Part shown: piece by piece, positions 22,161 through 52,669 of the stretch
How the letters are laid out: every line of letters starts with the position of its first letter
Position numbering within the stretch: position 1 is the first letter of the stretch
Assembly (NCBI RefSeq): GCF_000427665.1
Contig: NZ_KE386572.1
Span: 5,332,373-5,396,372 of the forward strand
Length of the DNA: 64,000 nt
Direction: 5' to 3'
From: Geminicoccus roseus DSM 18922
Lineage (GTDB): Bacteria > Pseudomonadota > Alphaproteobacteria > Geminicoccales > Geminicoccaceae
Notes under the pieces: model-generated
Databases searched by the model: none
What the model was told of the DNA's origin: nothing
The model's input: the letters and a program-made list of their open reading frames with translations, nothing else
Program-made: the position numbers and the translations under genes

Positions 22161-22183
22161 GCCGGCCTCTGCCGCAGCGCTTG

Positions 22184-22552: not shown

Positions 22553-22561
22553 GTCGCTTCC

Positions 22562-23812: not shown

Positions 23813-23967
23813 CAATCAACAGTTCCAGCTACGAAATCGCCTGTTCCGGTGCTGGAACAGTACAGATGTCGGAGCTACTGCTCCTCGGGAAACAGTCTTG
23901 TCCATGTGGTCAGGCCGCACAAGCGAGCAGCCTGTCCCACCCCTCACCCTGGCAGCCTCCTCCCCCT

Positions 23968-25065: not shown

Positions 25066-25227
25066 GACATGCTCCAATCGGCTGGGTCGGCAGCGGGCTT
25101 GCTTCCGCCACAGCAGCGCCGCCATGCACAAGGAAATTCTTCCAGACTCTTGAAAAGTTACTCCGATAGGTGCCAGATTTTCTCCCTGGGCCATGGAGTT
25201 TTTTGTCAGATTCCGGAAAGGGCGAGA

Positions 25228-27240
25228 ATGAAGAGGCGTAAGGTTGAGAAATATCGCGGCGCGAATGTACTTATACCGCGCCGAGCGGGATATTTTCTTT
25301 GGATCGGAATCGCCCTTCTCGCAGCTTCGTCCACCGTGTCGGCGCAGGACGCTTCCACCGTAAACGCGCCACGACCTTCAGTCCATCGGGAAAACTGGCC
25401 TCAAGTCGACCCCCCTGTTCTGGACGACCCGCATCTTACATCGCGCGTCATGGAATTGGTCAGCCGCCTGACTGTTGAAGAAAAAGTCGGACAGATTATT
25501 CAGGCCGACATCGCGAGCATCACGCCGGAGGATCTGCACCGCTATCCGCTGGGCGCGATCCTGAGCGGCGGGACGTCAGCGCCGAACCACAACGACTATT
25601 CCCCTGCCAAGGACTGGCTGGCCCTGGCCGACGCCTTCTACGACGCGAACCGGGCGCGCGGCGGCACCTATGTCCCCCTGCTGTGGGGAACGGATGCGGT
25701 CCATGGCCACAACAACATCATCGGCGCCACCATCTTCCCGCACAACATCGGGCTCGGTGCTGCCCACAATCCCGAGCTGATGCGCCGGATCGGCGAAGTC
25801 ACGGCGACAGAGGTGCAGGTCACCGGCGAGGATTGGACTTTCGCACCGGCGGTCTCGGTGGCGCGCGATGACCATTGGGGGCGGACCTACGAGAGCTATT
25901 CCGAAGATCCGGAACTGGTTGCGCTCTATGGGGGCGCCATCGTCGAGGGGCTGCAGGGCCGTCCGGGCACGCCGGACTTCCTGGGCAGCGACCGCGTGCT
26001 GGCGACCGCCAAGCATTTCCTCGGCGACGGCGGCACCTTTAGCGGCAAGGACCAGGGGGACGCGCGGATCTCCGAGGAGGAACTGCGCGACCTGCATGGC
26101 CCGGGCTACGTGACCGCTCTCCAGGCCGGCGCACAGACGGTGATGGCCTCCTATTCGAGCTGGCAGGGCATCAAGATGCACGGCAACCCTGCCCTGCTCA
26201 CCGACGTCCTGAAGGGACGCATGAGCTTCCAGGGCTTCGTGGTCGGCGACTGGAACGGGCACGCCCAGGTCCCGGGCTGCTCCAAGGAAAGCTGCCCGCA
26301 GGCGATCATCGCCGGGCTGGACATGTTCATGGCGCCGGACAAGTGGAAGGAACTCTACGCCAACACCCTGGCCCAGGTGCAGGCCGGCGAGATCCCGATG
26401 GCCAGGCTGGACGATGCGGTCGGCCGCATCCTCCGGGTCAAGATGCGCGCCGGCATGTTCGAGCGCCCGCGCCCTTCCGAGCGGCCGCTGGCCGGCCGGT
26501 ACGAACTCCTGGGCGCCCCGGAGCACCTGGAGGTGGCCCGCCAGGCGGTGCGTGAATCGCTGGTGCTGCTGAAGAACGACCGGAAGGTCCTGCCGCTCGC
26601 GCCGAACCAGCGGGTCCTGGTGGCCGGGAACGGCGCCGACAGCATCCCGAAGCTGGCCGGCGGATGGTCGGTCACCTGGCAGGGCACCAACATCGCGAAC
26701 CACAACTTCCCGAACGGACAGTCGATCTTCGCGGGCATCAGCGAAGCGGTCGGCGCCGGTGGCGGCTCAGTCGAGCTGAGCGTGGATGGAAGCTTCACGA
26801 CCAGGCCGGACGTGGCCGTGGTGGTGTTCGGCGAAGAGCCCTACGCCGAGACCAAGGGTGATCGGGAGACCACCGCCTACCACGCGATGCATGGCGCCGA
26901 TCTCGAACTGCTGCAGCGCCTGAAGGAGCAGGACGTGAAAATCGTCTCGATCTTCCTGTCCGGGCGCCCGCTCTACACCACGCCGGAGATCAACGTTTCG
27001 GATGCCTTCGTTGCCGCCTGGCTGCCGGGCACGCAGGGCGGCGGGGTCGCCGACCTGCTGTTCGCCCGGCCGGACGGATCGATCGCCCACGACTTCCGCG
27101 GCCGGCTGTCCTTCTCCTGGCCGAAATATCCGGACCAGATCGTCAACCGGAACGACGCGGACTACGACCCCCTGTTCCCCTATGGCTACGGCCTCACCTA
27201 TGCCGAGGCCCGCGAGCTCGGCCAGTTGCCGGAGAGCTGA
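25228..27240 (+). CDS. Beta-glucosidase/exo-glucanase (GH3), exported
   Basis: Family 3 glycoside hydrolase of 670 residues that removes sugars from the ends of beta-linked oligosaccharides. After a signal peptide (YFLWIGIALLAASSTVSAQ) come the (alpha/beta)8 domain with KHFLGDGGT (about 262) and the nucleophile Asp in GFVVGDWNG (about D341), then the second domain with RESLVLLKNDRKVLPL. The frame is open far upstream, but ATG at 25228 follows GGAAAGGGCGAG and precedes the signal peptide. The esterase gene starts 13 bases after its stop, so they are one transcript. Confidence 0.94.
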   Translation: MKRRKVEKYRGANVLIPRRAGYFLWIGIALLAASSTVSAQDASTVNAPRPSVHRENWPQVDPPVLDDPHLTSRVMELVSRLTVEEKVGQIIQADIASITPEDLHRYPLGAILSGGTSAPNHNDYSPAKDWLALADAFYDANRARGGTYVPLLWGTDAVHGHNNIIGATIFPHNIGLGAAHNPELMRRIGEVTATEVQVTGEDWTFAPAVSVARDDHWGRTYESYSEDPELVALYGGAIVEGLQGRPGTPDFLGSDRVLATAKHFLGDGGTFSGKDQGDARISEEELRDLHGPGYVTALQAGAQTVMASYSSWQGIKMHGNPALLTDVLKGRMSFQGFVVGDWNGHAQVPGCSKESCPQAIIAGLDMFMAPDKWKELYANTLAQVQAGEIPMARLDDAVGRILRVKMRAGMFERPRPSERPLAGRYELLGAPEHLEVARQAVRESLVLLKNDRKVLPLAPNQRVLVAGNGADSIPKLAGGWSVTWQGTNIANHNFPNGQSIFAGISEAVGAGGGSVELSVDGSFTTRPDVAVVVFGEEPYAETKGDRETTAYHAMHGADLELLQRLKEQDVKIVSIFLSGRPLYTTPEINVSDAFVAAWLPGTQGGGVADLLFARPDGSIAHDFRGRLSFSWPKYPDQIVNRNDADYDPLFPYGYGLTYAEARELGQLPES

Positions 27241-27253
27241 CCTGTCCCGCCTG

Positions 27254-28913: not shown

Positions 28914-30824
28914 TCAGCCCGGCCCCTCGGCGCGTCGGCTCCTTAGGCGGTCGAGCACGGCCTGGCTGGGCTGCCCGGTGACCGGGAGGTCGTGGCCGCC
29001 CTCGAACGCCCGGATCGCCGCCTGGGTTCGCGGTCCCATCTGGCCGTCGATCGGCCCCGGGTCGTAGCCCGCCTCCTGCAGAAGCTCCTGCAGCGACAGC
29101 AGCAGATCCTTGCCGCTCGGCCCGGCTGGCGCGGGCTCTGGCGAAGCAGAGGCCGGTGCCGTGGACGCTGCCGGCGCCGCGCTGTTGGCCTTCTGGTAGG
29201 CGCTGACGAAGCGCTCGATATAGTAGATGAAGGTATCCAGCTCCGGCCCGTTCGCGCTGTCGCTCGGCCGCGCGACGCCACCGTCGCCCCAGGTGCCGGT
29301 CAGGAGATGGATCGAGCTGTCCCGCACCAGCGCGACCTCCTGGCGCAGGCTGATCCAGACCCGGAAGACGCATCCTTTGTTGGCATCTCCCGGAGTCAGA
29401 TAGAACTCGAGCTGCGGCCGGCCGGGCGTGTCCTGGACTTCCTCCTTCGACAGCAAGCGGATGCCCGCCGCGTCGAACCGCGAGCGGATCGCTTCCAGCA
29501 CGCCGCTGCGCAACTTGCCCTTCGCCGACGGAGGCTCGACCAGATAGTCCACGATCACAAAGACGCCCGGCAGGCCTCGCAGCGAGTCGATCGGCTCCTG
29601 GATATCTCCCGGCGCTATCCGGATAGGCTCGCACGCCGCGCGCGAGATGGTGTCCGCCGGAGAGGCGGCCGGCGTTGATTGCGCGGTGGCGGCGGAAGCC
29701 TTGGGGGCTGCGGCGGACTTCGGAGCGGCGGCGGACGCTTTGGGAGCGGCGGACGCTTTGGGAGCGGCGGACGCTTTGGGAGCGGCGGCAGCAGCTTTGG
29801 GAGCGCCAGCGGCAGCCTTGGGGGCGCTGCCGGAAGCCTTGGCCGGCGCCGGCTGGGCCGGAGCGGCAGCCGGCTCCTGCGGGGGCGGCCGAACCGGCGA
29901 TGCTGCGGCAGCCGGCGGCGGTGGCGCGGCTGGTTCAATGGATGCCGCTCCAGCCACCTGGAGCGCGATCTGACCCGCCGGGACAGTCGGCCCGGTCTCC
30001 TGGGGCGGCACCTGCTCGGCCGCCAGCGCTGCCGTAGGTCCGCGCATGGAGCCGGTCGGGGGCACCGATGGCGTCGCGCCGTCATTGGCCTGCGCAGCAG
30101 CGGCCGCGGGGCCGGCAGTTCCTTCCTGCAAGGGTGCGGACGATGCGCTTCCTGATGCCGTGCTGGTGGACGACGTCTGGCTGGGTGCGGCAGGAGCAGG
30201 CTTTGCGCCTGCCGCGGCCTTGGGAGGATTGGCGAAGGGTCGCCGCGGGGCCGCGTCGAAGGCGAGGTCCGCTGCCTGCCCGTTTTCAACCCAGCGGATG
30301 AAGGCGGCCACCGTCGCCAGGCCGTCGATGGGCAGGATGTCTCCATCCTCCAGCGGCGTCAGGCTCGACGCCGCCAGCAGTTCAACCGTCCTATCCGGCG
30401 CGGATAGGGCTGGAAGGGTGGCGGCATCCTCCGCGTCGCCGGTGAGGCTGAAGCGCTCGGCGGAGGCGACCCCGTCGAGGCTGATGGATGGGCGGCCATC
30501 CTCGCCGACGCTCAGCCGTACCGGCCCGCGCCTTGCGGAACAGTCGACCGGCCTGGGCGTGCACTCGACCTCCCAATATTCTGCGTCGAGCCGCTCACCC
30601 TGGCCAAACCGGGCGAAGCCATCCGGGTTGAAGCGAAAGAACAGGTCGCCGGCCCTGCCCTCCTGGAACGTCGGCCAGCCTACCGGGCCACGCAGATATT
30701 GCTCGATCTCCTGTGCCCCGGCAGCGAACGGCTTGGCGGTGTCGACAATCGCCTCCTGCGCGGCGGCCGGCGTGGCAACCGCGGCGGCGACGGCTGCCGA
30801 GGCCAGCCAGAGCCGGTGCTTCAT
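28914..30824 (-). CDS. Exported modular protein with C-terminal peptidoglycan-binding domain
   Basis: Protein of 636 residues. Order: signal peptide (AVAAAVATPAAAQE); an N-terminal domain of about 90 residues rich in aromatic and charged positions (GPVGWPTFQEG); a long Ala/Pro/Lys linker built from repeats (about 210-420); a middle domain of about 150 residues (LRGLPGVFVIVDYLVEP to FIYYIERFVSAYQKAN); and a C-terminal PG_binding_1 module (LLQEAGYDPGPIDGQMG). The first and middle domains are clearly shared with the beta-barrel protein at 37023. Its ATG overlaps the stop of the DUF3131 gene upstream by 4 bases. I do not recognise the N-terminal or middle families. It may anchor a polysaccharide machine to the wall. 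Confidence 0.85.
   Translation of the reverse strand: MKHRLWLASAAVAAAVATPAAAQEAIVDTAKPFAAGAQEIEQYLRGPVGWPTFQEGRAGDLFFRFNPDGFARFGQGERLDAEYWEVECTPRPVDCSARRGPVRLSVGEDGRPSISLDGVASAERFSLTGDAEDAATLPALSAPDRTVELLAASSLTPLEDGDILPIDGLATVAAFIRWVENGQAADLAFDAAPRRPFANPPKAAAGAKPAPAAPSQTSSTSTASGSASSAPLQEGTAGPAAAAAQANDGATPSVPPTGSMRGPTAALAAEQVPPQETGPTVPAGQIALQVAGAASIEPAAPPPPAAAASPVRPPPQEPAAAPAQPAPAKASGSAPKAAAGAPKAAAAAPKASAAPKASAAPKASAAAPKSAAAPKASAATAQSTPAASPADTISRAACEPIRIAPGDIQEPIDSLRGLPGVFVIVDYLVEPPSAKGKLRSGVLEAIRSRFDAAGIRLLSKEEVQDTPGRPQLEFYLTPGDANKGCVFRVWISLRQEVALVRDSSIHLLTGTWGDGGVARPSDSANGPELDTFIYYIERFVSAYQKANSAAPAASTAPASASPEPAPAGPSGKDLLLSLQELLQEAGYDPGPIDGQMGPRTQAAIRAFEGGHDLPVTGQPSQAVLDRLRSRRAEGPG
29722..29820 (-). 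repeat. In-frame 18/21-bp tandem repeats coding an Ala/Pro/Lys/Ser linker
   Basis: Units of GGAGCGGCGGACGCTTTG (two exact 18-bp copies at 29743-29760 and 29761-29778) are flanked by 21-bp variants starting at 29722, 29779 and 29800. In the protein they encode APKASA-type repeats. Unit lengths are multiples of three, so copy-number changes would lengthen or shorten the linker without breaking the frame. Confidence 0.85.
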
Positions 30825-32500
30825 GGGTTCTTCGCACCAGCGGGTGACGCTGTGACGGTGGCAGGATCTGCCTGAGCAGGCTGAGCGGTGGGTGGCGACG
30901 CCGCGCTCGCCGCGCCTGGCATGGGTTGCTGCGAAGACTGCAACGCATCTGGCGCAGACGCCGCCTGAGCCTGGGCCGCGGCTTGGTCTCGGGCCGCAGC
31001 TTGCGCCTGGGCAGCCAGCCAGTCGGGCTGGTCCGGCAGGTTGCGCCGCTCCCGGATGTCGCCGTCCTGCATCGCGGTGAACCACACCTCGGCACCAGGC
31101 TCGCGGGGTGGCGTCAGGATCTTGCCCTGGGCCTTGTAGAGCAGGGCAGCCAGCAGGATGCCGTTGTTGTTGGCGGTGAACACCTCGATCGGACCACTGC
31201 CGTTCTCGAGCAGGCCCTCGTAGTAGCCGCGCTCCTCGTCGTAGAGATCGGAAACCGCCTCGAAGAGGATGTCGGTGTAGTGGGTATCCCAGAGCACCCA
31301 CATGCCGAACGCCGCCTTGGTGGAGACGGCCGCATAGTCAGGCGAGTAGTCGCCCCGGGGACTCAGCGTGTTCCAGGCATAGCCCGACGAGAAGATCGTG
31401 TCGTAGACGAAGAACGGTCCGCCCTGGACGTTGTGCTCGCTGCGCGCGGTCATCATGCCGGTGGTCTGGTAGCGGCACTCCTGCACCCGGTAGATCCGGT
31501 CGGCGAACTCGGCGCGCCAGCCATCCGTGTGCACCGTCTCGTCCGAACTCATGTCGCTCGGCAGATCCCAGTTCAGTTCCATGCCGTCGAGGATGTAGCC
31601 CTCCGTCACGACATAGTTCTGGGTGTGGTAGAATCGCGGATCGCGCGCGTCGTAGGGGACATGCTCCTTGCAGATCTGGACCGTCGCCAGCGGCTTGGCC
31701 TGCCGGGCAGCCGCCGGCTTGAAGCCCCACAGCATGAAGCCCTTGGCGGCATACTCTTCGTAGCCGAGCCTTCCCTCCTGCACGTAGTCCGTCTCGCCAT
31801 CCTTGCCGACGCGGCTGCCGTACAGAACACCCTTCTCGTCGATGACGTTGCTGTAGTTCCAGCGCAGCAGGACCCCATCGACCGAGTTGCCCAGATACGG
31901 ATAGCGGTGCTTCAGGATGCGCATCCAGACCAGGAAACGGCCGATGTCCAGCGCCGAGAACCCGATCTCGTCCGGCTTGTTGGCGTAGTTCACCATGGCG
32001 CCGGTCTCGGTGTGGTACACCTTGTTCGGCAACTCGCCCCGGAACAGCTTCAGGTTCCGGAACGTCCCCAACAGCTTGTACATCCGCCGATCGAAATCGT
32101 TCTTGGTGATGATCCCGAGTTCGTAGGCCGCGACCGCGCCGCTGATATAGGAGGCCGTGTCCCACAGCGTGGTCGAAGGGAAGCGGCCCACCGCGTTGGC
32201 CAGGCCGGTCTTTTCCTGGGTGAAGGTCTCGAAATACTTCCAGGCCTGCCTGGCGATCTGCATCTCGCGCTCGGAGAGGTCACCCTGACGCGCCTTGAAC
32301 GGCCGGAGAAATGGGCCGGGCCCACCTTCACCGATGGGCAGGGAATCCCCTTCACCCGTCTCGTCGCCGCCGGCCACCGGCGCGCGCTCCTGCGCAAGGG
32401 CGCGTCGCGGATCGGCCATCGCGCCACCCAGCAACACCACGCCGAAGCCTGCAGCCAACAACAGGAAGCGGTTCACGTGCACGTCGAGCAGCCTTTTCAT
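30821..32500 (-). CDS. DUF3131 domain protein, exported (second copy)
   Basis: Protein of 559 residues. A signal anchor (FLLLAAGFGVVLLGGAM) precedes a DUF3131 domain recognisable by blocks shared with the neighbouring copy: WKYFETFTQEKTGL, LPNKVYHTETG, LGYEEYAAKGF, ANNNGILLAALLYKAQG. The C-terminal 90 residues are a low-complexity Ala/Gln/Pro tail. The start overlaps the stop of the first DUF3131 gene by 4 bases and its stop overlaps the start of the modular protein. DUF3131 has no assigned activity. Its company with a GT2 synthase suggests a periplasmic glycan-handling role. Confidence 0.88.
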   Translation of the reverse strand: MKRLLDVHVNRFLLLAAGFGVVLLGGAMADPRRALAQERAPVAGGDETGEGDSLPIGEGGPGPFLRPFKARQGDLSEREMQIARQAWKYFETFTQEKTGLANAVGRFPSTTLWDTASYISGAVAAYELGIITKNDFDRRMYKLLGTFRNLKLFRGELPNKVYHTETGAMVNYANKPDEIGFSALDIGRFLVWMRILKHRYPYLGNSVDGVLLRWNYSNVIDEKGVLYGSRVGKDGETDYVQEGRLGYEEYAAKGFMLWGFKPAAARQAKPLATVQICKEHVPYDARDPRFYHTQNYVVTEGYILDGMELNWDLPSDMSSDETVHTDGWRAEFADRIYRVQECRYQTTGMMTARSEHNVQGGPFFVYDTIFSSGYAWNTLSPRGDYSPDYAAVSTKAAFGMWVLWDTHYTDILFEAVSDLYDEERGYYEGLLENGSGPIEVFTANNNGILLAALLYKAQGKILTPPREPGAEVWFTAMQDGDIRERRNLPDQPDWLAAQAQAAARDQAAAQAQAASAPDALQSSQQPMPGAASAASPPTAQPAQADPATVTASPAGAKNP

Positions 32501-33843
32501 GATCTGGCGCGCCCCGGGAAAGTCAGCAGGGGGCCGAAGGCCCTGAAGTGCAGGCTTTCCAGGATGATGGCGTTGGTGTTGGCGGTGATGGTGCCGTTGG
32601 TCGCCCCGTCGGCTTCGAACCGCCCGGTGAACCAGCCGCGTTCCGGGTCGTTCAGAGGGAAGATCTGCGACAGCAGGCCGGATGTGTACTCGTTGGGCAT
32701 CAGCGCCGACCAGCCGAACACGCTCTTGGTGTCCAGGAAGCGCAGCTGGTCGAATCGCTCGCCCTGCGGCGAGAGCACCGCCCAGGGAACGCCGTTGCCG
32801 ACGACGCAGCCGTAGACGAAATAGGGAGCGCCCGGCACGTGACCCTCGCTGAGCGCGGTCGGGAGGCCGGTAGCCCGGGCACGCGCCTGCTGCGCACGCA
32901 AGACCGCCCAGGCCGAGGCGCGCGAGCGTGCGTCGAAGCCCATCTCCAGCCCCTCGAGCACGTAGGGTTCGCTGGTGGTGCATACTTCGGCGTCGAACTG
33001 TTCCGCGTGGCGGTCGTCCACCGGGACCAGCACGCCCATGGCATCCACGAAGTGAACCGTGTCGGCTACCTCGAGCGCCCGGTACGCGTCGAGACCCAGG
33101 CGGACGAGTCCCTTGGCCGCATACTCTTCATAGCCCAGCCGGCCCTCCTGGACAGGCTCGGGGTTCGTCGGCAGCCGGCCCACCATCACCCCGTTCAGGA
33201 GCATCGCGTCGATCCGCCAGCCCTTCTCGATGGCCGCGATCTTCTCGGCATGCTCGGGGTAGCCGGCCTCGACGATCTCCATGGCGATCAGCAGGCGCGC
33301 GAGATCCAGGGCCGACCAGCCGATCCCGTCCTCGGTCGGCTCACCGTTATAGTCGGTCATCTTCAGGCTGCGGACGTCGTAGGACTTGTTCGGCAGGCTG
33401 CCGGCGTAGAGTGGGAGCTTTCCGATCGAATCGAGCGCCCTGACCATGTAGTCGTCGAAGGCGCCGGGGGTGATCAGGCCCAGCCTCTGGGCGGAAACCA
33501 GGGCATTCAGGTAGGAACCGATCTCCCAGGCCGTGACGCCGAAGAACCGGTCCACCGACCCCGGCAGCCCCGTTTCAGGATGGACGTTCTGCTCGAAGTA
33601 GCGCCAGGCCAATTGCGCCCAGGCCACCTGGTCCGGGGAGAGCGGCAATGGCTGCGCAACCGGCGCCTGGCCGGCCGCCTCGAGCATGGCCTGCATCTGC
33701 GTGGGCTCGGGGCGGCCCGCGGCGGATCGAGCCTGCTCCGCCTCGACTCCTTCCAGCGCCAGGATGATGGAAAAGCTCACGAGCAGGCCGAGCAGGAAGA
33801 TGAGGTGGCCGCGCGCGCGGTAGATTCCACTGCGGAAGTTCAT
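32497..33843 (-). CDS. DUF3131 domain protein (first copy), membrane-anchored
   Basis: Protein of 448 residues with one N-terminal membrane segment (HLIFLLGLLVSFSIILAL) and a periplasmic DUF3131 domain. It shares WRYFEQNVHPETGLPG, LPNKSYDVRSLKMTDY, QEGRLGYEEYAAKGL and TANTNAIILESLHFRA with the second copy, so the two arose by duplication but have diverged strongly. It lacks the long tail of the other copy. Its start overlaps the stop of the GT2 gene by 4 bases (ATGA). No catalytic mechanism is established for the family. Confidence 0.88.
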   Translation of the reverse strand: MNFRSGIYRARGHLIFLLGLLVSFSIILALEGVEAEQARSAAGRPEPTQMQAMLEAAGQAPVAQPLPLSPDQVAWAQLAWRYFEQNVHPETGLPGSVDRFFGVTAWEIGSYLNALVSAQRLGLITPGAFDDYMVRALDSIGKLPLYAGSLPNKSYDVRSLKMTDYNGEPTEDGIGWSALDLARLLIAMEIVEAGYPEHAEKIAAIEKGWRIDAMLLNGVMVGRLPTNPEPVQEGRLGYEEYAAKGLVRLGLDAYRALEVADTVHFVDAMGVLVPVDDRHAEQFDAEVCTTSEPYVLEGLEMGFDARSRASAWAVLRAQQARARATGLPTALSEGHVPGAPYFVYGCVVGNGVPWAVLSPQGERFDQLRFLDTKSVFGWSALMPNEYTSGLLSQIFPLNDPERGWFTGRFEADGATNGTITANTNAIILESLHFRAFGPLLTFPGRARS

Positions 33844-35702
33844 GGGCTCGGCACCCCACTCATCAGGCCGATGGCGGCAGGCTCCGGCTCGTCCTCAAGC
33901 GGCTCCTCCTGGTAGAAGGCGGCCGTCACGATCGGCAACATCGCGAGCACGTTGTTCAGTCCCCAGAACAGGTTCGCCAGGAGTGCCCCCAGCTTGTAGT
34001 CACGCAGGTCCAGCGACCAGCAAATGAACGCGAAGGCCAAGCTCCAGAGCGTCAGCAGAATGATCGCGAGCTGTGGCCATACGAGGTAAAGGAAGTTGCC
34101 TTCCTGACGCACCTTCGGAGTCACCTTGAACTTGATTTCCTTGCGCAGGAGGGTCGTCCAGATCGCCCGCAGGTTGATCGGGAAGAAGTTCAGATAGGCC
34201 GCCTTCGGCTTGTAGCCCGCGATGTTCCAGGTCCCCACCATGGTCGCCAGTTCATTGGCGATCAGGAACGGGATGAGGTGCATGAAGAACTCATCAGAAT
34301 AGGCGGCGACTGGCGCAACATTGAACAAAAGATAGATGATCGGCGCCAGCAGGAAGACCGTGTTCCAGATGGCGCCCAGATAAGAATAAAAGGTCGACCC
34401 GTACATGATCTTCTGCGGCAGGGTCAGCCCTTTACGGAAGAGCGGGTTCTCGTGGAACAGGATATCCAGGCTGCCGCCGGCGTAGCGAAAGCGCTGCATC
34501 GCCCAGGTCAGCAGGTCCTGCGGCGAGAGCATCTTCGATTCCACGAACGGGTGCTGCACCGACTTCCAGCCGCGCTCGCGGTCGCTGTGCAGGACGATGG
34601 AGGTGAAGATGTCCTCGGAGGCATGGAACTTGTATGGCGTCACCTCGGTGTTGAGCGCCGCCTCCTGCCGGATCAGTTCCTCGACCACCGGATCCAGCGT
34701 CGTCTCGTTCAGCATCCGCAGCGTGCTGGAGATGGTGCCTTCCGCATCCCGGTCGCTGGCAAGAACATAGGAACGAAGGGCGGCCTCCATCACCGCCTCC
34801 CGGCGATGGATCGAAGCCGCGCCGCAGCAGAACCCCGCATTCGCCCAGTTCCGGCGGCGCAGGATGATATCGTAGAAGAGCTGCGGGTCGTTCACGAACG
34901 GATCGTGCCCGACCTCGACCGGGCCGATCACCCGCTCCACGGCCCGCCCGATGAAGCGGCCGAAACGGCCGAACCGGCGCTCCAGAACCTTGGGGAGCGG
35001 CTTGCCCGCCGGCAGGTCGTAGAACCATTGCGGGGTCTGCACCCAAGCCATCTTCGGATCGCGGAAATAGCCGAGCGTCCGCTCCAGGATGGTCGCGAAC
35101 GGCCGGGTATCGGCGTCGCAGATCAGGATGAAGTCGCCGCTGGTGTGCTCGATGGCGTTGCGCAGGTTGCCGGCCTTGAAGCCGATATTGGAGGGCCGGG
35201 TGATGTAGTTGACCCCCTCCTCGGCGGCCACGGCGGCCATGGCCGGCCGCTTGCCGTCGTCCAGGACGTGGATGCGCAGGTCCAGGGGGTGCGGATAGCG
35301 GATGTTCCTGGCATCGCGCAGGCCCAGCCGGACCAGTTCCGGATCCTCGTTATAGGTCGCGAAGAACACGTCGACGGCGATCGGGCGCCCAGGTTCGTCG
35401 GCATCGATGTCGCAGTCCTGGGCGTTTTCCGGCGGCGGGAGGATCGGCGGATCGCTGGTCTTCCAGAGATTGACCGTGAACAGGATCAGGCCGAAATATG
35501 CCAGGGTCTCCGCAAGCGCCACCGGCAGCGCGAACCAGAGCGCGTCGTAGTTGAGCGAGTAGAGCCAGCGCCAGCCGATGTACCAGCCGCCCAGGACCAG
35601 CGACACCGTGGCCAGGAACTGCCAGAGCGATTCACGCTGGTCCGAGTGGGGAACGGGTGGCGGCGGCTTCCTGCCTTCGTACCTTGTAAAATAAAACGGC
35701 AT
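33840..35702 (-). CDS. Membrane glycosyltransferase 2 (cellulose/curdlan synthase-like)
   Basis: Processive-type GT2 synthase of 620 residues. Two N-terminal membrane helices precede the cytosolic GT-A domain with VDVFFATYNED (first Asp), CDADTRP (DxD) and HASEDIFT (acceptor-site Asp in SED where TED is usual). The acceptor motif is QRFRY in place of QxxRW. At least four more helices follow. No PilZ domain is visible, so it is not a standard c-di-GMP-controlled BcsA. It heads the coupled operon GT2, DUF3131, DUF3131, modular protein. The polymer is unknown; a beta-glucan is a reasonable guess. Confidence 0.92.
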   Translation of the reverse strand: MPFYFTRYEGRKPPPPVPHSDQRESLWQFLATVSLVLGGWYIGWRWLYSLNYDALWFALPVALAETLAYFGLILFTVNLWKTSDPPILPPPENAQDCDIDADEPGRPIAVDVFFATYNEDPELVRLGLRDARNIRYPHPLDLRIHVLDDGKRPAMAAVAAEEGVNYITRPSNIGFKAGNLRNAIEHTSGDFILICDADTRPFATILERTLGYFRDPKMAWVQTPQWFYDLPAGKPLPKVLERRFGRFGRFIGRAVERVIGPVEVGHDPFVNDPQLFYDIILRRRNWANAGFCCGAASIHRREAVMEAALRSYVLASDRDAEGTISSTLRMLNETTLDPVVEELIRQEAALNTEVTPYKFHASEDIFTSIVLHSDRERGWKSVQHPFVESKMLSPQDLLTWAMQRFRYAGGSLDILFHENPLFRKGLTLPQKIMYGSTFYSYLGAIWNTVFLLAPIIYLLFNVAPVAAYSDEFFMHLIPFLIANELATMVGTWNIAGYKPKAAYLNFFPINLRAIWTTLLRKEIKFKVTPKVRQEGNFLYLVWPQLAIILLTLWSLAFAFICWSLDLRDYKLGALLANLFWGLNNVLAMLPIVTAAFYQEEPLEDEPEPAAIGLMSGVPSP

Positions 35703-35729
35703 GTTCCGCCACTGAGGCTATTTTTATGC

Positions 35730-35758
35730 GATATTCAATAGGGTAGTTTTTATGTCAA
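35730..35758 (-). promoter_or_regulatory. Candidate promoter of the GT2 operon
   Basis: On the minus strand a perfect TTGACA (35758-35753) is followed after 17 bases by AATATC (35735-35730), a weak -10. Transcription would begin just before the GT2 ATG at 35702. The gap to the divergent acyltransferase is AT-rich, unlike the surroundings. Confidence 0.45.
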
Positions 35759-35839
35759 GCTTTAGCTAGACATTTCCGGATATTTCATTCTTCCTGCGCG
35801 GCGGCTCAACAACGCCATTCTGCCCACGGTGAGATCGTC

Positions 35840-37006
35840 ATGGCTTCAAGGGCTTCCGAGGCATCGCGCTTTGCCTGGCTGGACACGCTGAGGCTCCTTG
35901 CAGGCATCTGCATCGTCGCCGTTCATTCCACGTCCAACCCTGCGGGAAACCCTTTCCCCAACTTCCCCGAGGGGGAGCGAATCGCCCCGATCCTGTTCCG
36001 CTCGATCGTCTATATCGCGCGCACCGAGCTGTTCCTGATCATCTCCGTGTTTCTCCTCATGATGGCGCTGGATCGACGGCCGCGCTCCTATGGCACCGTG
36101 ATCCGCGAGCAGGCCCGTCGCCTGCTGGTGCCGTTCGCCTTCTGGGTCGTGGTCTATGCCTTCTACCGCCTGATCAAGGCCGCGCGTTTCGGCTATGCGG
36201 CGAGCATCCTGACCGATCTTGCCGATCCGTGGAGTTGGGCCGGTTACCTCCTCCTGGGCAACGTCCAGTATCACATGCATTTCCTGCCGACCTTGTTCGG
36301 CATGATCCTGCTGTTCCCTGCCTACCGTCTCGCAGTGCGCCTGCCGATCCTGGGCGTGTCCGTCCTGATCTTCCTGTCGGCCAAGCTGGTGCTCGACCAA
36401 TGGGTCTACGGGACCCTGAGCGGTTCGCCGTGGCTCGAATACGTCGTGCGGCTCGTGAAGATCTTGACCTATGGAGGCTACGGCATCCTGGCAGCCAGCT
36501 TCTATGGCATTCTGAAGCGTGACTTCGACACCGAGACCGGGCGGCAGATCTTCGGTGTCGTTCTTCTGCTGGGCGCCGCCTTGTTCATGGTGAAACTCGT
36601 CCATGCCTACCAGATCATCAAGACAGGGACCTGGGTCTTCACCTTCACGCCCGGGTACTGGGCGGACTATCTCATGCCGCCACTCCTGTTCCTCGGCATC
36701 ATGTCGATGCGGCACCTCAATTGGCCTCCGATCTTTTCCCGCCTGGCGCCGTTCAGCTTCGGCATCTACCTCATGCATCCGCTCCTGATGGACCTGGTCG
36801 AGATCATGATCGCGCCCTGGAACCTGGTCCCCTGGCAGATGGTGAGCCTGAAGTTTCCGCTGGTCCTGGTCAGCACCGTGATCCTGGTGATGCTGGTCGC
36901 ACGCCTGCCATTCCTGTCCTGGACCATCGGCCTCAGCGCCAAGCCGGCGCGCCAGGCGCCCCCGATGCAGACACCACCCGCAGCCATGGCCCTGCCCCGT
37001 TCCTGA
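35840..37006 (+). CDS. Acyltransferase 3 family membrane protein
   Basis: Integral membrane O-acyltransferase of 388 residues with about ten helices. The catalytic-type His is in ICIVAVHSTSNP in the first helix, and the family's RRLLVPFAFW segment and FSFGIYLMHPLLMD close to the C-terminus are present. Such enzymes transfer acetyl or succinyl groups to exported sugars. It is divergent from the GT2 operon with a shared 137-base promoter region and convergent with the beta-barrel protein gene. It probably decorates the polymer made by the GT2. Confidence 0.9.
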   Translation: MASRASEASRFAWLDTLRLLAGICIVAVHSTSNPAGNPFPNFPEGERIAPILFRSIVYIARTELFLIISVFLLMMALDRRPRSYGTVIREQARRLLVPFAFWVVVYAFYRLIKAARFGYAASILTDLADPWSWAGYLLLGNVQYHMHFLPTLFGMILLFPAYRLAVRLPILGVSVLIFLSAKLVLDQWVYGTLSGSPWLEYVVRLVKILTYGGYGILAASFYGILKRDFDTETGRQIFGVVLLLGAALFMVKLVHAYQIIKTGTWVFTFTPGYWADYLMPPLLFLGIMSMRHLNWPPIFSRLAPFSFGIYLMHPLLMDLVEIMIAPWNLVPWQMVSLKFPLVLVSTVILVMLVARLPFLSWTIGLSAKPARQAPPMQTPPAAMALPRS

Positions 37007-37022
37007 TGGGAAGCGAGGCGGC

Positions 37023-39449
37023 TCAGGGCTCGGCGAACCAGTCGATCACCTCTTCCAGCGGAACCCGGTAGGTCAGGCTGACGGCGCCATCGAGAAAGCG
37101 GCTGCCCCCGTCGCGCCAGGGCCAACGGTTCCCGGAAGAATTGCTGTACTCCAGGGAGAAGGTGCCCGGCCGCCAGTTCGACCAGCCGAAGGAGTAGCTG
37201 TAGTCCGGGTCCCAGTCCTGCTGCTGGTCGGGGTCCGGATAGAGAAAGGCGGTGCCTCCGACGAACAGGCTTCGCCAGATATAGTAGCGGCATCCGAAGG
37301 AGAGCGACGTCTTGAAGCTCTTGTCGCTGTTGCTGGCCTGATCAAAGTAGCGGGGTGTCGTCGAGATCGCCGGCTGGCAGGCGAAGATCCGGCTTTCTTC
37401 GGTATAGAGCGGCGCAAAGACACGGTCCTCGATGGCCAGCTTGTAGGCAGCCCGGATCGATCCCTCCTCCAGCCTGGTGAAGGCCTCCTCCCCGTCGGGA
37501 TCGAAGCGGTTGCCGCCATAGTTCCCGTAGGTCAGCGAGAAAGTGCCGGGGCGGTAGTCGTCATAGCCGAAGGCATAGGCGAAGTCCGGGTTCCAGGGCT
37601 GCTGGTGGGAGGGCTCCAGGTACTGGTAGAGCGTCAGCCGCCCGAACCAGCCGGTGTCCGGCCAGTTGAGACTGAGGGTCGTGCTGAAGGTCGGCGTCGA
37701 CGGAGGTTCGCGGTCCGGCCCGATGATGTTCGGATCCTGAACGACGTCATTCTCCCCGGCGCGAAGCGGAAGGCCCACGCCCAGCGTGATGCCGAGGGCG
37801 CGGTCGAGCCACTGCCCCCAGGTCAGTTCCGGCGTGGTCCGTCTGGCGACCGCCTTCTTGCGCGGGGCGCTGCTGTTGGCGGTGCGCCAGTCGGCGATGA
37901 AGCTCTCAAGGTAGTAGGTGATGGATTCGACTTCCGCCCCCTCGTCGAACCCCAGGCGGGACGGACCGCTCTTGCTCCACGTCCCGCCATAGAGCGCGGT
38001 CCCGGTGGCGCGTCCGAGCACCACCTGCTGCCGGAGGCTGATGGATACGCGGAACGGGCAGCCGGTCTCCGGGTCCCCGGTGGAAAGGTAGAACTCCAGG
38101 CGCGGCTGGCCGGGCAGTTCCGCCAGGTCCTTGGCGCTCACCACCCGCAGGCCTGCCTCTTCCAGCCGCCTTTCCACCCGCTGGCGGACTTCCGCGCGCA
38201 GCTTGCCCTTCAGCGGCGCCGGTTCGGTGAGATAGTCGGTGAGCACGGCCACGGCTTCGAGGCCGCGCAGGCCGTCAATCGAATCGCCGAGCGGCGCCTC
38301 CGGATCCAGCGGCTCGATCGGGCAGGTCGCGCCGGGCGCCAGGCCGGCCGCAGGCGAGCCTGTCGGGCGCTCGGCCGGCACCCGCGGCGCTGGCGAGGAG
38401 ATCAGCTCCATCCCGTTCCGGAGATGAAGCGGCTTCGGGTCGGGTGGTCGGGGCGCCGCGGCCGAAGAAACGGACAGAGATGAAGACGGCGTCTCGGCTG
38501 AAGGAGAGAGTTCCAGGCCGGGCTCCGGGGCTGGCGGCCCAGCGGCAGGCTGGACCGGTACCGCTTCGGGCAGCGCAGAAGCGGGGACCTGCGCGGGCGG
38601 TGCCGCTGGAGCGACAGCCGGAGGGGTGCTGGCAGGTGGATCCGGGACGGGCGCGGGCTGGGTGGCTACTGACGACGGGACTGTGGCTGGTGGCCGCAAC
38701 GCGGGCGCCGAAGCGATGGCCGCACGATCGTCTGCCGGCGGCGCAATTGGGAGGAGAGCCTCGGGTGGTGCAGGAGGTTCGGGTGGAAGGTGACCGGATG
38801 GAGGCGGCCGTTCATCCTGGCCCGCAACAGCATGACCCGCTGCCGGCTCCCCGCCATTCTCGGCCCATCGCAGATAGCGGATGACCACCGCCAGCCCGTC
38901 CACCGGCAGGGCCGGCCTGCCATGCTCCGGCACGAGGGCGGTTGTTCCCTCCAGACCGCCGGCCGAAGCAATTTTGGACAACTGGCCGAGGGTTGCCGGC
39001 GCCATGTCCGGGTTATCGCCTTGTCGGAGCCGGAGTTCGGTCGGGGCGTCCTCGATGGAAAGGATGACCTGACCTTCTGCCCCCAGTTCCACGTGCAGAC
39101 TCTCGCGGCTCGCCCGGCAATCGATCGACGGCCAGGAGATGCACAACACTTCCCAGACGGTCTCCGGATCCCGCTCGTCCACCGCGAACCGCGCATAGCC
39201 GTCGGGGTCGAACCGGTAGGTGATCCCGTCCGCCACACCCTGCTGGTAGGTGGGCCAGCCAATGGCACCCCGGATGTCCTGATCCCGCTCGACCGCGCCC
39301 GGTGCGAAGGCCCGGCTGGTATCAAGGAACGCCTCTTGGGCAGCGGCTGTTCCAGCGGCATGGGTCAGGACCAGCGCCAGTGCCAGCCGCCCGGCACTCC
39401 ATCGCCCTGCAGGAGGATATTCGCAGCGCCTCTTCACCAGGCAGGCCAT
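37023..39449 (-). CDS. Exported modular protein with C-terminal outer-membrane beta-barrel
   Basis: Protein of about 808 residues. After a signal peptide (ALALVLTHAAGTAAAQE) it repeats the architecture of the protein at 28914: N-terminal domain with GAIGWPTYQQG and FDPDGYARF, a Pro/Ala-rich linker, then the same middle domain (GLRGLEAVAVLTDYLTEP to ITYYLESFIADWRTAN). Instead of a peptidoglycan-binding module it ends in about 260 residues of alternating aromatic strands with two internal repeats around RPGTFSL, followed by TYGNYGGNRF or EYSNSSGNRW. A final Phe-rich strand suggests a beta-barrel. ATG at 39449 is preferred over 39497. It may form the outer-membrane end of the polysaccharide system. 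Confidence 0.82.
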   Translation of the reverse strand: MACLVKRRCEYPPAGRWSAGRLALALVLTHAAGTAAAQEAFLDTSRAFAPGAVERDQDIRGAIGWPTYQQGVADGITYRFDPDGYARFAVDERDPETVWEVLCISWPSIDCRASRESLHVELGAEGQVILSIEDAPTELRLRQGDNPDMAPATLGQLSKIASAGGLEGTTALVPEHGRPALPVDGLAVVIRYLRWAENGGEPAAGHAVAGQDERPPPSGHLPPEPPAPPEALLPIAPPADDRAAIASAPALRPPATVPSSVATQPAPVPDPPASTPPAVAPAAPPAQVPASALPEAVPVQPAAGPPAPEPGLELSPSAETPSSSLSVSSAAAPRPPDPKPLHLRNGMELISSPAPRVPAERPTGSPAAGLAPGATCPIEPLDPEAPLGDSIDGLRGLEAVAVLTDYLTEPAPLKGKLRAEVRQRVERRLEEAGLRVVSAKDLAELPGQPRLEFYLSTGDPETGCPFRVSISLRQQVVLGRATGTALYGGTWSKSGPSRLGFDEGAEVESITYYLESFIADWRTANSSAPRKKAVARRTTPELTWGQWLDRALGITLGVGLPLRAGENDVVQDPNIIGPDREPPSTPTFSTTLSLNWPDTGWFGRLTLYQYLEPSHQQPWNPDFAYAFGYDDYRPGTFSLTYGNYGGNRFDPDGEEAFTRLEEGSIRAAYKLAIEDRVFAPLYTEESRIFACQPAISTTPRYFDQASNSDKSFKTSLSFGCRYYIWRSLFVGGTAFLYPDPDQQQDWDPDYSYSFGWSNWRPGTFSLEYSNSSGNRWPWRDGGSRFLDGAVSLTYRVPLEEVIDWFAEP

Positions 39450-39604
39450 GCTCCGTAGATCAAGGGCGCGCGGCCTACATAATCCTGGCCCGTGCACCTT
39501 CCAAGAGGTGCGACAACCAGGAACGCTACAACGTCGATTTAATGATCGTTCTCAGGGCAAATCCCGTATGAGGACCGCTCCGACAATTGTATTTCCGATA
39601 TGAC

Positions 39605-40399
39605 ATGCGGCGAATTTCTCACTTGTTTCCGGCGATAGTCGTAGCTCTGCTGGCGGCGGGCTGCGGCCCCAGGCTCGACAGCTGTGGCGGCCCCCCTGGC
39701 GGCTGGGGCTTCGACGGCTCGGGCCAGCTGCTTCCCGTACTGGAAACGGTTCCTCCTGCGCTGACGATCGTCGCGCTTGGTTCCTCCAGCACCGAGGGCA
39801 TCGGGGCGTCCACGCCGGCATACACCTATCCCGCGCAACTGCAGCGCATCCTCGACAACCGCTATCCGGATGCTGACATCAAGGTGTTCAACAAGGGTGT
39901 CGCCCAGGAGATCGTGGCGAGCAACCTGGTCCGCCTGGACCGGGATGTGCTTTCCCTTTCGCCCGACCTCGTCATCTGGCAGGTCGGCACCAACGACGCG
40001 ATCTACCTGGACGACCTGACGACGATCCTGGAGCAGGTTCAGACCGGCATCGACCGGATCAAGAAGTCCGGGACGCGACTGGCCATCCTGTCCCCCCAGT
40101 CGTTTCCCGACGAGGCGCGCGACGGGCGCATCCGACGGATGAACGACGCCCTGCGCGACATGGCGCTCGCCAACGACGTGTCGTTCCTGGACCGGCACGG
40201 GCTGATGACGTGGTGGCTGGACTCCCGCACCCTGTTCCCCGACGAACTGCTCGGCGGGGACGCCCTGCACATGAGTGACCGAAGCTACGAATGTCTTGCC
40301 ATCCGTATCGCAGATCTCGTACCGGCGCTCGCCCAGACTCAGAGTGACAAACATCTGGCATCATCGCCGCAGGTGCCACTCACCGTCTTGCCAAGATAG
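39605..40399 (+). CDS. SGNH/GDSL hydrolase lipoprotein
   Basis: Esterase of about 264 residues with a lipoprotein signal (lipobox LLAAGC). SGNH residues are visible: Ser in VALGSSSTEG, Asn in WQVGTNDA, and Asp/His in GDALHMSD. Members of this family add or remove O-acetyl groups on exported glycans. ATG at 39605 gives MRRISHLFP and is preferred over 39587. It is divergent from the beta-barrel protein gene, with about 155 bases between the starts, and near the acyltransferase. It is likely part of the envelope polysaccharide locus. Confidence 0.88.
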   Translation: MRRISHLFPAIVVALLAAGCGPRLDSCGGPPGGWGFDGSGQLLPVLETVPPALTIVALGSSSTEGIGASTPAYTYPAQLQRILDNRYPDADIKVFNKGVAQEIVASNLVRLDRDVLSLSPDLVIWQVGTNDAIYLDDLTTILEQVQTGIDRIKKSGTRLAILSPQSFPDEARDGRIRRMNDALRDMALANDVSFLDRHGLMTWWLDSRTLFPDELLGGDALHMSDRSYECLAIRIADLVPALAQTQSDKHLASSPQVPLTVLPR

Positions 40400-40532: not shown

Positions 40533-42614
40533 ATGCCGGCGGCTCCCATACCCGAGGACGAGGACGAACGCCTAGCCTCCCTCCTGGCCTGCAACATTCT
40601 TGATACGCCGTCTGATCCACGCTTCGATTCCATGACCCGCCTTGCGGCGCGGCTCTACGGCGTCCCGATCGCGCTGGTGTCGCTGATCGATGACCGGCGA
40701 CAGTGGTTCAAGTCGTCGGTCGGCGTGTCGCTCACCGAAACCTCCCGCGATCTCGCCTTCTGCGCGCATGCGCTTCTCCATCCGGATCAGCCGCTGGTGG
40801 TGGAAGATGCGACGTTGGATCCGCGCTTCGCCGACAACCACCTCGTGACCGGCCCGCTCGGGGTGCGCTTCTATGCCGGTGTCCCGCTGCGCGATCGGGA
40901 GGGACGAGCACTCGGCACGCTCTGCATCCTCGACCAGCGGCCGCGCCAAATGCAGCTCGTCGAGTTGCACACCCTGATCGACCTGGCTGCGGGCGTGGGC
41001 TCGGTGATCGAGCTGTACCGGAGCCTCGCGACGCTCCAGGACGGAGAAGAGGTCGCCCGAACGCGTGCCGAGGAGTTGGACGCGGCGCGGCGGAAGGCCG
41101 AGGAGGCGGACAAGGCCAAGTCGATGTTCCTGGCGGCGATGAGCCACGAGATCCGCACCCCGCTCACCGGCGTGCTCGGCATGGCCGACCTGCTCAGCCA
41201 CGAGGCGCTCACCGTCAGGCAGCGCGGCTATGTCGACGTGATCCGCACCTCCGGCCGCCACTTGCTGACCGTCATCAACGACATCCTGGATTTCTCCCGG
41301 CTCGAAGCTGGCGGCCTGATCCTCGAGCAGATCGACTTCGCGATTGCCGATGTCCTGGAGCAGACCCGCTCGATCCTGTCGCCTCATGCGCATGAGCGCG
41401 GGCTGCAACTGGCGTTCGACATCGCCCAGCCGTCGCCCCCGGCCGTGAAAGGCGATCCCACCAGGCTGCGACAGGTCCTGGTCAACCTGATCGGCAACGG
41501 CCTGAAATTCACGAGCGAGGGCGGTGTCTGGGTGAGCATTCGGTGCCGGCCCCTGCCGGACGACCGGGTCAGCTGTCGTTTCGAGGTGCGTGACACCGGC
41601 ATCGGGATTGCCGAGGAGCGCCAGGCGGAACTCTTCGAGGCGTTCACCCAGGCCGACCTGTCCACCAGCCGCCGCTATGGCGGCAGCGGCCTCGGCCTTG
41701 CGATCTGCCGCCAGCTCGTGACGGCCATGGGCGGCACGATCGGTGTCGAGGGCCGGCCCGGGCAGGGCAGCACCTTCTGGTTCGAGATACCGTTCGAGCG
41801 GGGCAGCCTGGTCGCCGCACAGGAGAAGGCTGCGCTCGATCCGGCCTCGATGCCGAGCCTGCGCGTCCTGGTGGTCGAGGACGTGGCCGTCAATCGCGAC
41901 CTGCTGGAAGCCACCCTCGCCCGCTATGGCCACGTGGTGGCGTTCGCCGAAAACGGTGCCGAGGCGGTCGCCAAGGTCGCAGCCCAGTCCTTCGACCTGG
42001 TGCTCATGGACATGCAGATGCCGGTCATGGACGGGGTCGAAGCGACCCGGCGCATACGTGCGCTGCCTCCGCCGGCCTCCACGGTCCCGATCGTCGCGCT
42101 GACCGCCAACGTGCTGGAGACCGAGCGACAGCGCTGCTTGGCGGCCGGCATGAACCAGGTGCTCATCAAGCCGGTCGTCTGGACCGACCTGTTCGGCGTC
42201 CTGGCCTCGGTCGGCCAGCGCAGTCCCGCAGTCCATCGTCCCTCCCCCACCGCAGTCCCCCGCGATCGCCAGGAGACGCCGGATGCCGAGGGACTGGTGG
42301 ACCGGCAGCGGATCGACGCTCTCCGGTCGCTTCTGGGCGCTACCAAGCTCGAGAAGATCCTGCGGGATGTCATCCTGTCGACAGAAACGTCGGCGAAGGA
42401 GATGACGGATCTGGGAGAGGACGCGGCGGCCGTGGCGAGCATTGCGCACCGCCTGTGCGGCACCACGGCGAGCCTGGGATTGGCGCGCATCGGCGCGGCA
42501 AGCCGGGAGATCGAGGACCTCGCCCGCGAGGGGAAGCCCCTGCAGGCCGCCATCGCGGAACTGCACCAACTTGCCCGAAAGACCCGGGATCTGTTGGACT
42601 TGCAGGAAAGCTGA
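40533..42614 (+). CDS. Hybrid sensor histidine kinase (GAF-HisKA-HATPase-REC-Hpt)
   Basis: Cytosolic kinase of 693 residues with no membrane segment. A GAF sensor (about 20-160) is followed by a coiled coil, then the phospho-His in [13 protein letters not shown] (H205), and an ATPase domain with GTGIGIAEE-type G1 ([12 protein letters not shown]) and G2 ([14 protein letters not shown]). A receiver ([14 protein letters not shown], acceptor Asp in [13 protein letters not shown]) and a C-terminal Hpt domain ([13 protein letters not shown]) complete it. ATG at 40533 follows CAGGAGACAGAG. It should relay phosphate through its own REC and Hpt to a separate regulator. No partner lies next to it. Confidence 0.93.
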
Positions 42615-52535: not shown

Positions 52536-52669
52536 GCAGGCGCGGACGGGGTGGGGCCGGATCCCACCCCGGTGCCTCCGGTAACCTTTTCCCCGTCCGC
52601 GGCGCAGTAGAAGGTGAAGAACGGAAGCGCAGCCACCCCGGCAGCGGGTTTGCCATCCAGGGAAACGAC

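Follow-up and report, generated by a model that had tools for sequence, protein, structure and literature searches.

A stretch of 64,000 nucleotides from Geminicoccus roseus DSM 18922 (GCF_000427665.1, NZ_KE386572.1, 5,332,373-5,396,372; hereafter the window, to which all coordinates refer) carries what is almost certainly a polysaccharide locus, whose polymer is likely to be a glucan. We consider it probable that the genes form a synthase-dependent, partner-switch-controlled system of glucan assembly and export, with GH189-like processing in the periplasm and an exit in the outer membrane. A previous interpretation of the DNA letters (here the sequence-only reading) had already proposed an envelope polysaccharide locus in which a synthase sits in the inner membrane, one module binds the wall and a barrel is predicted for the outer membrane, and the recurrence of the same parts together in other genomes bears it out. 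The genes were found at the coordinates it gave, and the locus exceeds the ends then drawn, spanning 21.7-42.6 kb. Its components are the following.

21723..22160, - strand: RsbW-like HATPase of the anti-sigma/serine kinase type (HATPase_c_2, E 6e-20), homologous to the RsbW-type gene of the type II loci described below
22184..22552, - strand: STAS protein (antagonist; STAS, E 9e-19)
22562..23815, - strand: response regulator-SpoIIE phosphatase fusion (Response_reg, E 4e-28; SpoIIE, E 3e-39)
28914..30824, - strand: P0004, modular exported protein with N domain (~30246-30758), low-complexity linker, middle domain (~29181-29660) and PG_binding_1 (28944-29096)
30821..32500, - strand: P0003, DUF3131 protein of type D2, signal peptide by eye, predicted GH189/GH144-like fold
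32497..33843, - strand: P0002, DUF3131 protein of type D1, hydrophobic N-terminal stretch by eye
33840..35702, - strand: P0001, BcsA-like GT2 synthase with no PilZ listed, QRFRY replacing QxxRW
35840..37006, + strand: P0006, membrane acyltransferase (PF01757)
37023..39497, - strand (true start probably downstream of 39497): P0005, modular exported protein with N domain (~38843-39347), linker, middle domain (~37860-38351) and predicted 12-stranded outer-membrane barrel (37026-37850)
40533..42614, + strand: GAF-histidine kinase-receiver-Hpt hybrid kinase (first in-frame ATG at 40533)

The synthase, both DUF3131 genes and P0004 are chained by 4-base overlaps, as had been claimed, with ATGA at all three junctions (GT2 with the first DUF3131 gene, 33840-33843; first with second DUF3131 gene, 32497-32500; second DUF3131 gene with P0004, 30821-30824). 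P0005 is placed past the opposite-strand acyltransferase gene. The GC content at third codon positions was 0.79-0.91 in the 12 frames tested, matching real genes in this GC-rich DNA.

Related loci in other genomes

Named genomes were scanned with a D2 profile, and the best 80 of 250 confirmed loci were used. Judged by title, these come mostly from Rhodobacteraceae in the wide sense, some being labelled only 'Alphaproteobacteria' and one Azotobacter beijerinckii. Sorted by gene order, they comprise 61 type I loci (L040-L100), where D2 is followed by an N-domain protein, and 19 type II loci (L101-L119), with the typical order partner switch, D2, acyltransferase, GT2, D1, peptidoglycan-binding protein and, often, barrel protein. 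Their parts were counted by profile and single-sequence searches over all frames in 96 entries, the window included; acyltransferase figures sum the results of three queries, including an OpgC-type one, and hybrid kinases were sought with a query of a common type. On this basis all type I loci have the N domain (61 of 61), followed by acyltransferase (42), GT2 (34), middle domain (20), STAS (16), RsbW (7), SpoIIE (3), GH16 (2) and hybrid kinase (1). The type II loci all have GT2, acyltransferase and STAS (19 of 19 each), and most have SpoIIE, RsbW and peptidoglycan-binding genes (17 each), hybrid kinase (15) and barrel (12), with the N domain in 8 and the middle domain in none. Neither a barrel nor a peptidoglycan-binding gene was found in type I loci within the fetched DNA (0/61 for each); such absences are weak evidence, because the loci reach at most 10 kb to each side and many contigs are short. 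The other 15 loci, chosen for having a match rather than as a sample, include GT2 in 11, SpoIIE and STAS in 8 each, and barrel and acyltransferase in 7 each. The window is alone among the 96 entries in holding every part together.

Similar gene sets lie on plasmids, those of plant and gut bacteria among them. Our plasmid search gave 25 records with DUF3131 and 15 matching P0005; each of the 15 rows listed matches in the barrel. Plasmids of Salmonella, Paracoccus seriniphilus and Pseudooceanicola carry GT2, two or three DUF3131 genes, acyltransferase, SpoIIE, STAS and barrel together. The Pantoea copy has GT2, three DUF3131 genes, SpoIIE and barrel; a STAS match is separate from these, at the margin of the stretch, and no RsbW was found in that copy. 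The acyltransferase stretch of the Pantoea stewartii plasmid (L033, 5121-6526) is split over two frames, bears no annotated gene and has an IS66 element nearby; this cluster may be decaying. Among the clusters of DUF3131 and GT2 on large plasmids of Paracoccus, Pseudooceanicola and Salmonella (L032, L036, L037 and L138), L138 has a globin gene nearby, as does the Pantoea L033, and L036 a heme-NO-binding gene, a proximity hinting at an oxygen or nitric oxide input to the plasmid clusters.

Fold and kinship of the DUF3131 proteins

P0002 and P0003 both match PF11329 across the whole model (E ~1e-118) and are the only DUF3131 matches in the G. roseus genome. When the D2 profile was compared with the PDB, only cyclic beta-1,2-glucan synthases appeared at E <= 1 (8wy1, E 1e-4; 8rf9 and 8rf0, E 0.019). 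A Pfam DUF3131 match occurs in 8 of 385 sampled genomes of the class, G. roseus included; in three of these eight it falls, at the Pfam cut-off, on synthase-sized frames of 2830-2991 residues, being the sole match in two of the three.

The AlphaFold2 model of D2, built from 48 rows, has a mean pLDDT (predicted local distance difference test) of 91.3, and Foldseek ranked GH144, GH189 and related proteins at the top. The best solved fold by VIA-align was the GH189 cyclisation domain 8wy1 (Z 32.6, root-mean-square deviation 2.9, 350 residues aligned), among Foldseek's best 1000 chains, the only ones aligned, so that families outside that listing could also fit. The 15 best-ranked solved entries all come from the SGL group of beta-1,2-glucan enzymes. 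The other 14 lie at Z 22.3-29.3 and include whole cyclic beta-1,2-glucan synthases (26.8-29.3), GH144, newer glucanases and three uncharacterised 'putative glucoamylases' (25.2-29.1), and GH162 (22.3-22.6). With the first row outside the group at Z 21.4, GH189 stands clearly apart from other (alpha/alpha)6 enzymes, and GH162 only narrowly. By its predicted fold DUF3131 is a GH189/GH144-like domain, and activity as a glucan hydrolase or transglycosylase is likely; a beta-1,2 linkage of the polymer, which the fold suggests, is only tentatively proposed.

According to the passages that treat them in PMC12102758, families GH144, GH162, GH189 and GH192-194 act on beta-1,2-glucan, and part of PMC10834661 describes GH189 as a retaining transglycosylase whose nucleophile is E1442 and whose acid/base is E1356. 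DUF3131 resembles the SGL clan beta-1,2-glucanases (GH144, GH162, GH192-194) in fold (Z 22.3-29.1), whereas identity is only 10-12%, and a word search found no DUF3131 in the main text of PMC12102758. The likeness to cyclic beta-1,2-glucan synthase is that of a glucan synthase coupled to a GH189-fold enzyme, the GH189 domain being the closest in fold to DUF3131. The difference is that here two or three (alpha/alpha)6 enzymes stand apart from the synthase as proteins of their own, that this synthase is a BcsA-like GT2, and that no GH94-type match is listed among the locus genes scanned.

Six acidic positions never vary across the 48 DUF3131 rows, which cover both types. By linear interpolation, we would guess that the XcSGL clan residues E239, F286 and Y367 lie near E181/E187, D223 and F303/Y305 of the D2 model. 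A tree of 56 DUF3131 domains has a D1 clade of 22 rows (98/93) and a D2 clade of 22 rows (100/97), and because these clades are separate the pair is old and probably not redundant. Outside both fall 12 rows, among which are the Nostoc rows and, from the plasmids of Pantoea, Salmonella and Vibrio, the first DUF3131 of each; several of the 12 sit on long branches and are of unsure placement. The window D2 clusters with type I loci (100/99) and the window D1 with that of Azotobacter (90/91, below the starred level). With a type I-like D2, an Azotobacter-like D1, and regulators and barrel of type II kind, the locus looks like a mosaic. A second, very divergent DUF3131 group was seen in frames of 826-895 residues in Sulfitobacter, where other glycosyltransferases are nearby, and in two further genomes (L038, 4771-7101; L027, 6505-9090; L028, 7843-10320).

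The synthase and the acyltransferase

The best matches of the GT2 protein are cellulose synthases, with PDB 7lby (BcsA) at E 2e-32. It scores 220 bits on the CelA model and 20 bits on the MdoH model, where the cut-offs are 699 and 884, no search aimed at OpgH having been made. The sequence-only reading had seen neither a cyclic di-GMP domain nor BcsB/BcsC, and we agree on both counts, since no PilZ is listed for the synthase at E <= 1 and no BcsB- or BcsC-type match was found among the locus genes scanned. Across 64 aligned proteins of such loci, the window included, the catalytic motifs are kept (DD in 63/64 with one gap, DAD and ED in 64/64). QxxRW is the signature of processive synthases, and its position reads QxxKY in this subfamily (K 62/64, Y 63/64) and QRFRY in the window. 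'Cellulose synthase' is, judged from these motifs and scores, an unsafe name for the window protein, because CelA falls far below its cut-off, no PilZ is listed and QxxRW is changed. With the BcsA system it has in common the GT2 core with DDG, DAD and ED motifs and, in concept, the succession of inner-membrane synthase, periplasmic glycan enzyme and outer-membrane barrel; it differs in QxxKY or QxxRY for QxxRW and in the lack of a listed PilZ.

One alternative is that the polymer is cellulose-like or otherwise not beta-1,2-linked, the DUF3131 proteins being BcsZ-like trimming hydrolases of new specificity. The BcsA match, the GH10 and GH3 genes nearby and the annotation of relatives' GT2 as cellulose synthase in some records would suit it. 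We nevertheless find it unlikely, given the altered signature, the low CelA score, the missing PilZ match, the missing BcsB- and BcsC-type matches among the locus genes scanned and, within the families treated in the relevant part of PMC12102758, the action on beta-1,2-glucan of the near-fold relatives of known substrate.

P0006 matches PF01757, with PF10129 not listed at E <= 1, and shows no similarity to the OpgC of Salmonella. The acyltransferase of the Salmonella locus is OpgC, not the P0006 kind, and the acylation step therefore seems to be kept while its enzyme changes. Outside the locus, two OpgG (MdoG) genes lie elsewhere in the genome (G000:C5:4856537-4857961 and 4125938-4127383), so that an ordinary periplasmic-glucan pathway probably exists beside this one. 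The osmoregulated periplasmic glucan system (OpgG/OpgH/OpgC) is alike in having a GT2, a glucan-processing enzyme and acyl modification, and unlike in that OpgG is not in the locus and P0006 is not OpgC. With OpgG elsewhere, no match to the PF10091 glucanase in the G. roseus genome, and DUF3131 only here, the locus is, on gene content, not the ordinary periplasmic-glucan system.

A system similar to it, in which the acylated glucan made and trimmed by GT2 and DUF3131 is kept periplasmic and the barrel serves on the side, in uptake or at the cell surface, would be in keeping with the SGL-type fold, the barrel-free type I loci (61/61 within the fetched DNA) and the OpgC-annotated acyltransferases of the Salmonella and Paracoccus liaowanqingii loci. 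The two OpgG genes, the dissimilarity of P0006 to OpgC and the joining of the barrel to the same domains as the wall anchor argue the other way, and we regard this reading too as improbable.

The modular proteins and the predicted barrel

P0004 and P0005 have, as had been noticed, the same N domain (41% over 179 residues, E 1e-29) and the same middle domain (44%). The former (28914-30824) was said to end in a peptidoglycan-binding module, and its C-terminus is indeed PG_binding_1 (E 6e-13). No Pfam match worth naming was found for the N domain (21 rows) or the middle domain (16 rows), and none among solved structures, where PDB rows came only at E 0.8-0.9. Among the 96 entries, only the two window proteins unite N and middle domains in a single frame, and fusions of middle domain with barrel, N domain with peptidoglycan-binding module and middle domain with peptidoglycan-binding module occur only in the window; the fusion of N domain with barrel is found in 9 other entries. 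In relatives the four modules are separate genes. What had been called 'swappable C-terminal modules' is better understood as the product of fusions between modules that relatives encode separately. Domains fused here and separate elsewhere probably work together, and no other argument speaks as strongly for a single structure that joins the two exported domains to the barrel and the wall anchor.

The full-length P0005 alignment (A4) put the first barrel strands onto the middle domain, so the barrel was folded alone. The model of the C-terminal 275 residues (16-row alignment) has 12 strands with weak loops, at a mean pLDDT of 78.3, and a two-fold repeat is visible in the alignments. The idea that the 37023 protein ends in a beta-barrel with internal repeats had been made to depend on such a prediction, and it stands. 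The best solved folds by VIA-align were KdgM (Z 13.4), Tsx (12.4) and NanC (12.4), followed by autotransporter translocators (12.1-12.2; NalP translocator 12.1), VhGalP (11.8), FapF and a designed 12-stranded barrel (11.5), and OMPLA (9.9). With Z scores this close, a 12-stranded transmembrane barrel is what the model shows and the lead of the sugar channels is small. Foldseek gave modest scores, OmpG leading (best E 4e-5), and the barrel sequence had no match in the PDB at E <= 5. An outer-membrane location is very likely on this model, and a role as exit channel has a little better than an even chance. Two cysteines, C158 and C187 (first row of alignment A5), are invariant in the 16 barrel rows and type II barrels have a further pair in the first repeat, which suggests one disulphide per repeat.

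Barrel homologues occur in 11 viral contigs. Of three inspected, two are lambda-like and have the homologue flanked by the J protein on one side and the tail fibre on the other; in the third it is next to a MuA-type transposase. In an Edwardsiella plasmid-borne prophage it lies beside a Lom protein. Positions between J and tail fibre, or near a MuA-type transposase, are places where lysogenic-conversion genes are known. The prophage homologues are listed here.

L121, 7743-8609: prophage barrel homologue
L128, 7743-8609: prophage barrel homologue
L039, 9740-10612: prophage barrel homologue
L120, 7761-8750: prophage barrel homologue

From their gene context these would be candidate lysogenic-conversion outer-membrane proteins, and their presence in lambda-like and Mu-like prophages indicates that the barrel module travels by itself. 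Against 50,697 phage records the barrel gave no match at E <= 1e-3, a predicted viral structure library gave only two weak matches at E 0.001, one of them from an uncultured Caudovirales, and in the 385 genomes of the class the barrel profile found only its own genome and one weak case.

Another reading makes the barrel an enzyme of the outer membrane or a protein that masks receptors (OMPLA- or Lom-like), and not the exit. One homologue reaches 25.8 bits on Pfam PLA1 (cut-off 27), OMPLA is in the fold list and the prophage positions would fit. The catalytic site of PldA, His-x-Ser plus Asn, reads Asn-x-Ser/Gly at the resembling position of the barrel rows, the KdgM, Tsx and NanC channels top the fold list, by little, and the barrel is fused to the wall-anchor domains, all of which makes this quite improbable.

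The partner switch

Phosphatase (SpoIIE), STAS antagonist and HATPase kinase are adjacent (21,723-23,815), on the same strand as the synthase operon. In relatives, comparable regulator genes lie around the corresponding synthase genes (in type II loci, SpoIIE and RsbW each in 17/19, the kinase in 15/19), and control of this locus by the partner switch appears likely from this arrangement. STAS control of an envelope polysaccharide is reportedly found in the Vibrio fischeri syp system with SypA/SypE, which resembles the window locus in this respect; syp is another kind of polysaccharide locus and is not known to include DUF3131.

Neighbouring genes

Three further genes belong to the neighbourhood.

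23968..25194, - strand: GH10 glycoside hydrolase (Glyco_hydro_10, E 5e-84), accessory, membership of the system uncertain
25228..27240 (likely start), + strand: GH3 glycoside hydrolase with N and C domains, accessory, membership uncertain
39587..40399, + strand: SGNH/non-GDSL lipoprotein, a neighbour not conserved with the system

Together with a carboxylesterase, GH10 and GH3 form what looks like a plant-polymer-degrading cluster (23968-28897) separating the partner switch from the synthase operon. Acyl modification had been attributed to the acyltransferase and the SGNH lipoprotein. The first half of this stands, the acyltransferase being conserved with the system (19/19 type II loci), whereas the lipoprotein was found in 0/95 other loci (E 1e-8) and is rejected as a partner. 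Farther away, at 52307-54805, a VTT membrane domain is joined to a pyridine-nucleotide disulphide oxidoreductase (PF09335 and PF07992).

Proposed mechanism

Apart from the facts of sequence and fold, the likelihood of each step is what we infer. The GT2 would polymerise and extrude a beta-glucan, which the two DUF3131 enzymes would cut, transfer or cyclise in the periplasm and the acyltransferase would decorate. The N and middle domains may dock on the periplasmic machinery, keeping wall anchor and barrel aligned, and the barrel would be the exit of the glucan. The partner switch, not cyclic di-GMP binding by the synthase, would switch the system on. In a bolder form, which we think rather unlikely, the locus would be a split, mobile counterpart of cyclic glucan synthase, with a GT2 whose acceptor-site signature is QxxKY feeding two GH189-like transglycosylases, a new cyclic or re-linked glucan that is acylated, a wall-tethered 12-stranded channel, a partner-switch gate in place of cyclic di-GMP and a phage-captured exit protein as lysogenic-conversion gene.

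Several observations weigh against an export system for a glucan. The sequence match of DUF3131 to GH189 is confined to the first ~90 positions (hhalign probability 95 over 86 columns). Profile alignment, reliable in the N-terminal part only, gave no mapping of GH189 E1356/E1442 onto DUF3131, and in global mode it covers 25 columns at probability 0.13. The 48 DUF3131 rows are mostly Rhodobacterales, and across 10 more divergent rows the invariant set of six acidic residues shrinks to D124, D223 and E247, E181 and E187 being kept in at least 90%. For the Group 4 protein of the SGL clan no substrate was found, according to the passage on it in PMC12102758. The synthase is nearest to enzymes that make beta-1,4 linkages, and the accessory hydrolases depend on the lineage, with GH10 and GH3 in the window and GH16 or GH2 among some relatives, so that they indicate no single linkage. 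As to the exit, confidence in the barrel model is moderate, autotransporter translocators and a designed barrel nearly equal the sugar channels, and barrel genes also sit in prophages. Outer-membrane proteins often end in Phe, as do 14/15 of the other barrel rows, but P0005 ends in FAEP. The type I loci, with no barrel or peptidoglycan-binding gene within the fetched DNA, argue that the exit is not universal, and the partner switch could control something else. That the genes are unrelated neighbours lying together by chance is very hard to believe: the SGNH gene is missing from the 95 other loci, GH16 is present in few, and GH10, GH3 and the carboxylesterase were not seen in annotated relatives, but the set of GT2, two DUF3131 genes, acyltransferase and partner switch turns up again in distant lineages as well as on plasmids.

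A Shewanella network paper reportedly mentions DUF3131. A like gene set appears in a passage on the Klebsiella accessory 'block 3b' (cellulose synthase, three DUF3131, OpgC, hybrid kinase, anti-sigma factor and its antagonist; PMC12974863), where no mechanism or product is given. DUF3131 also figures in a Brucella expression table (within PMC6382750), and a Burkholderia paper in which SpoIIE and cellulose come up concerns, in its relevant part, another gene and bcsB (PMC7444824). In the open-licence literature we found no mention of PF11329, no paper assigning the locus a function and, beyond the Klebsiella passage, no study of it; others may exist elsewhere. New here are the SGL-group fold of DUF3131, the larger locus with its partner switch and hybrid kinase, the QxxKY subfamily, the module fusions and the prophage barrels.

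If the proposed system is correct, DUF3131, a Pfam family with no assigned function, would become a family of candidate glucan-remodelling enzymes, glucan cyclisation and transfer domains need not be joined to their synthase, and a partner switch can be linked to a synthase that has no PilZ. The fusion proteins of G. roseus point out exported docking domains whose partners are directly testable. A locus distributed over many marine Rhodobacteraceae, Azotobacter, Vibrio, and Pantoea and Salmonella plasmids would gain a testable product and a testable control.

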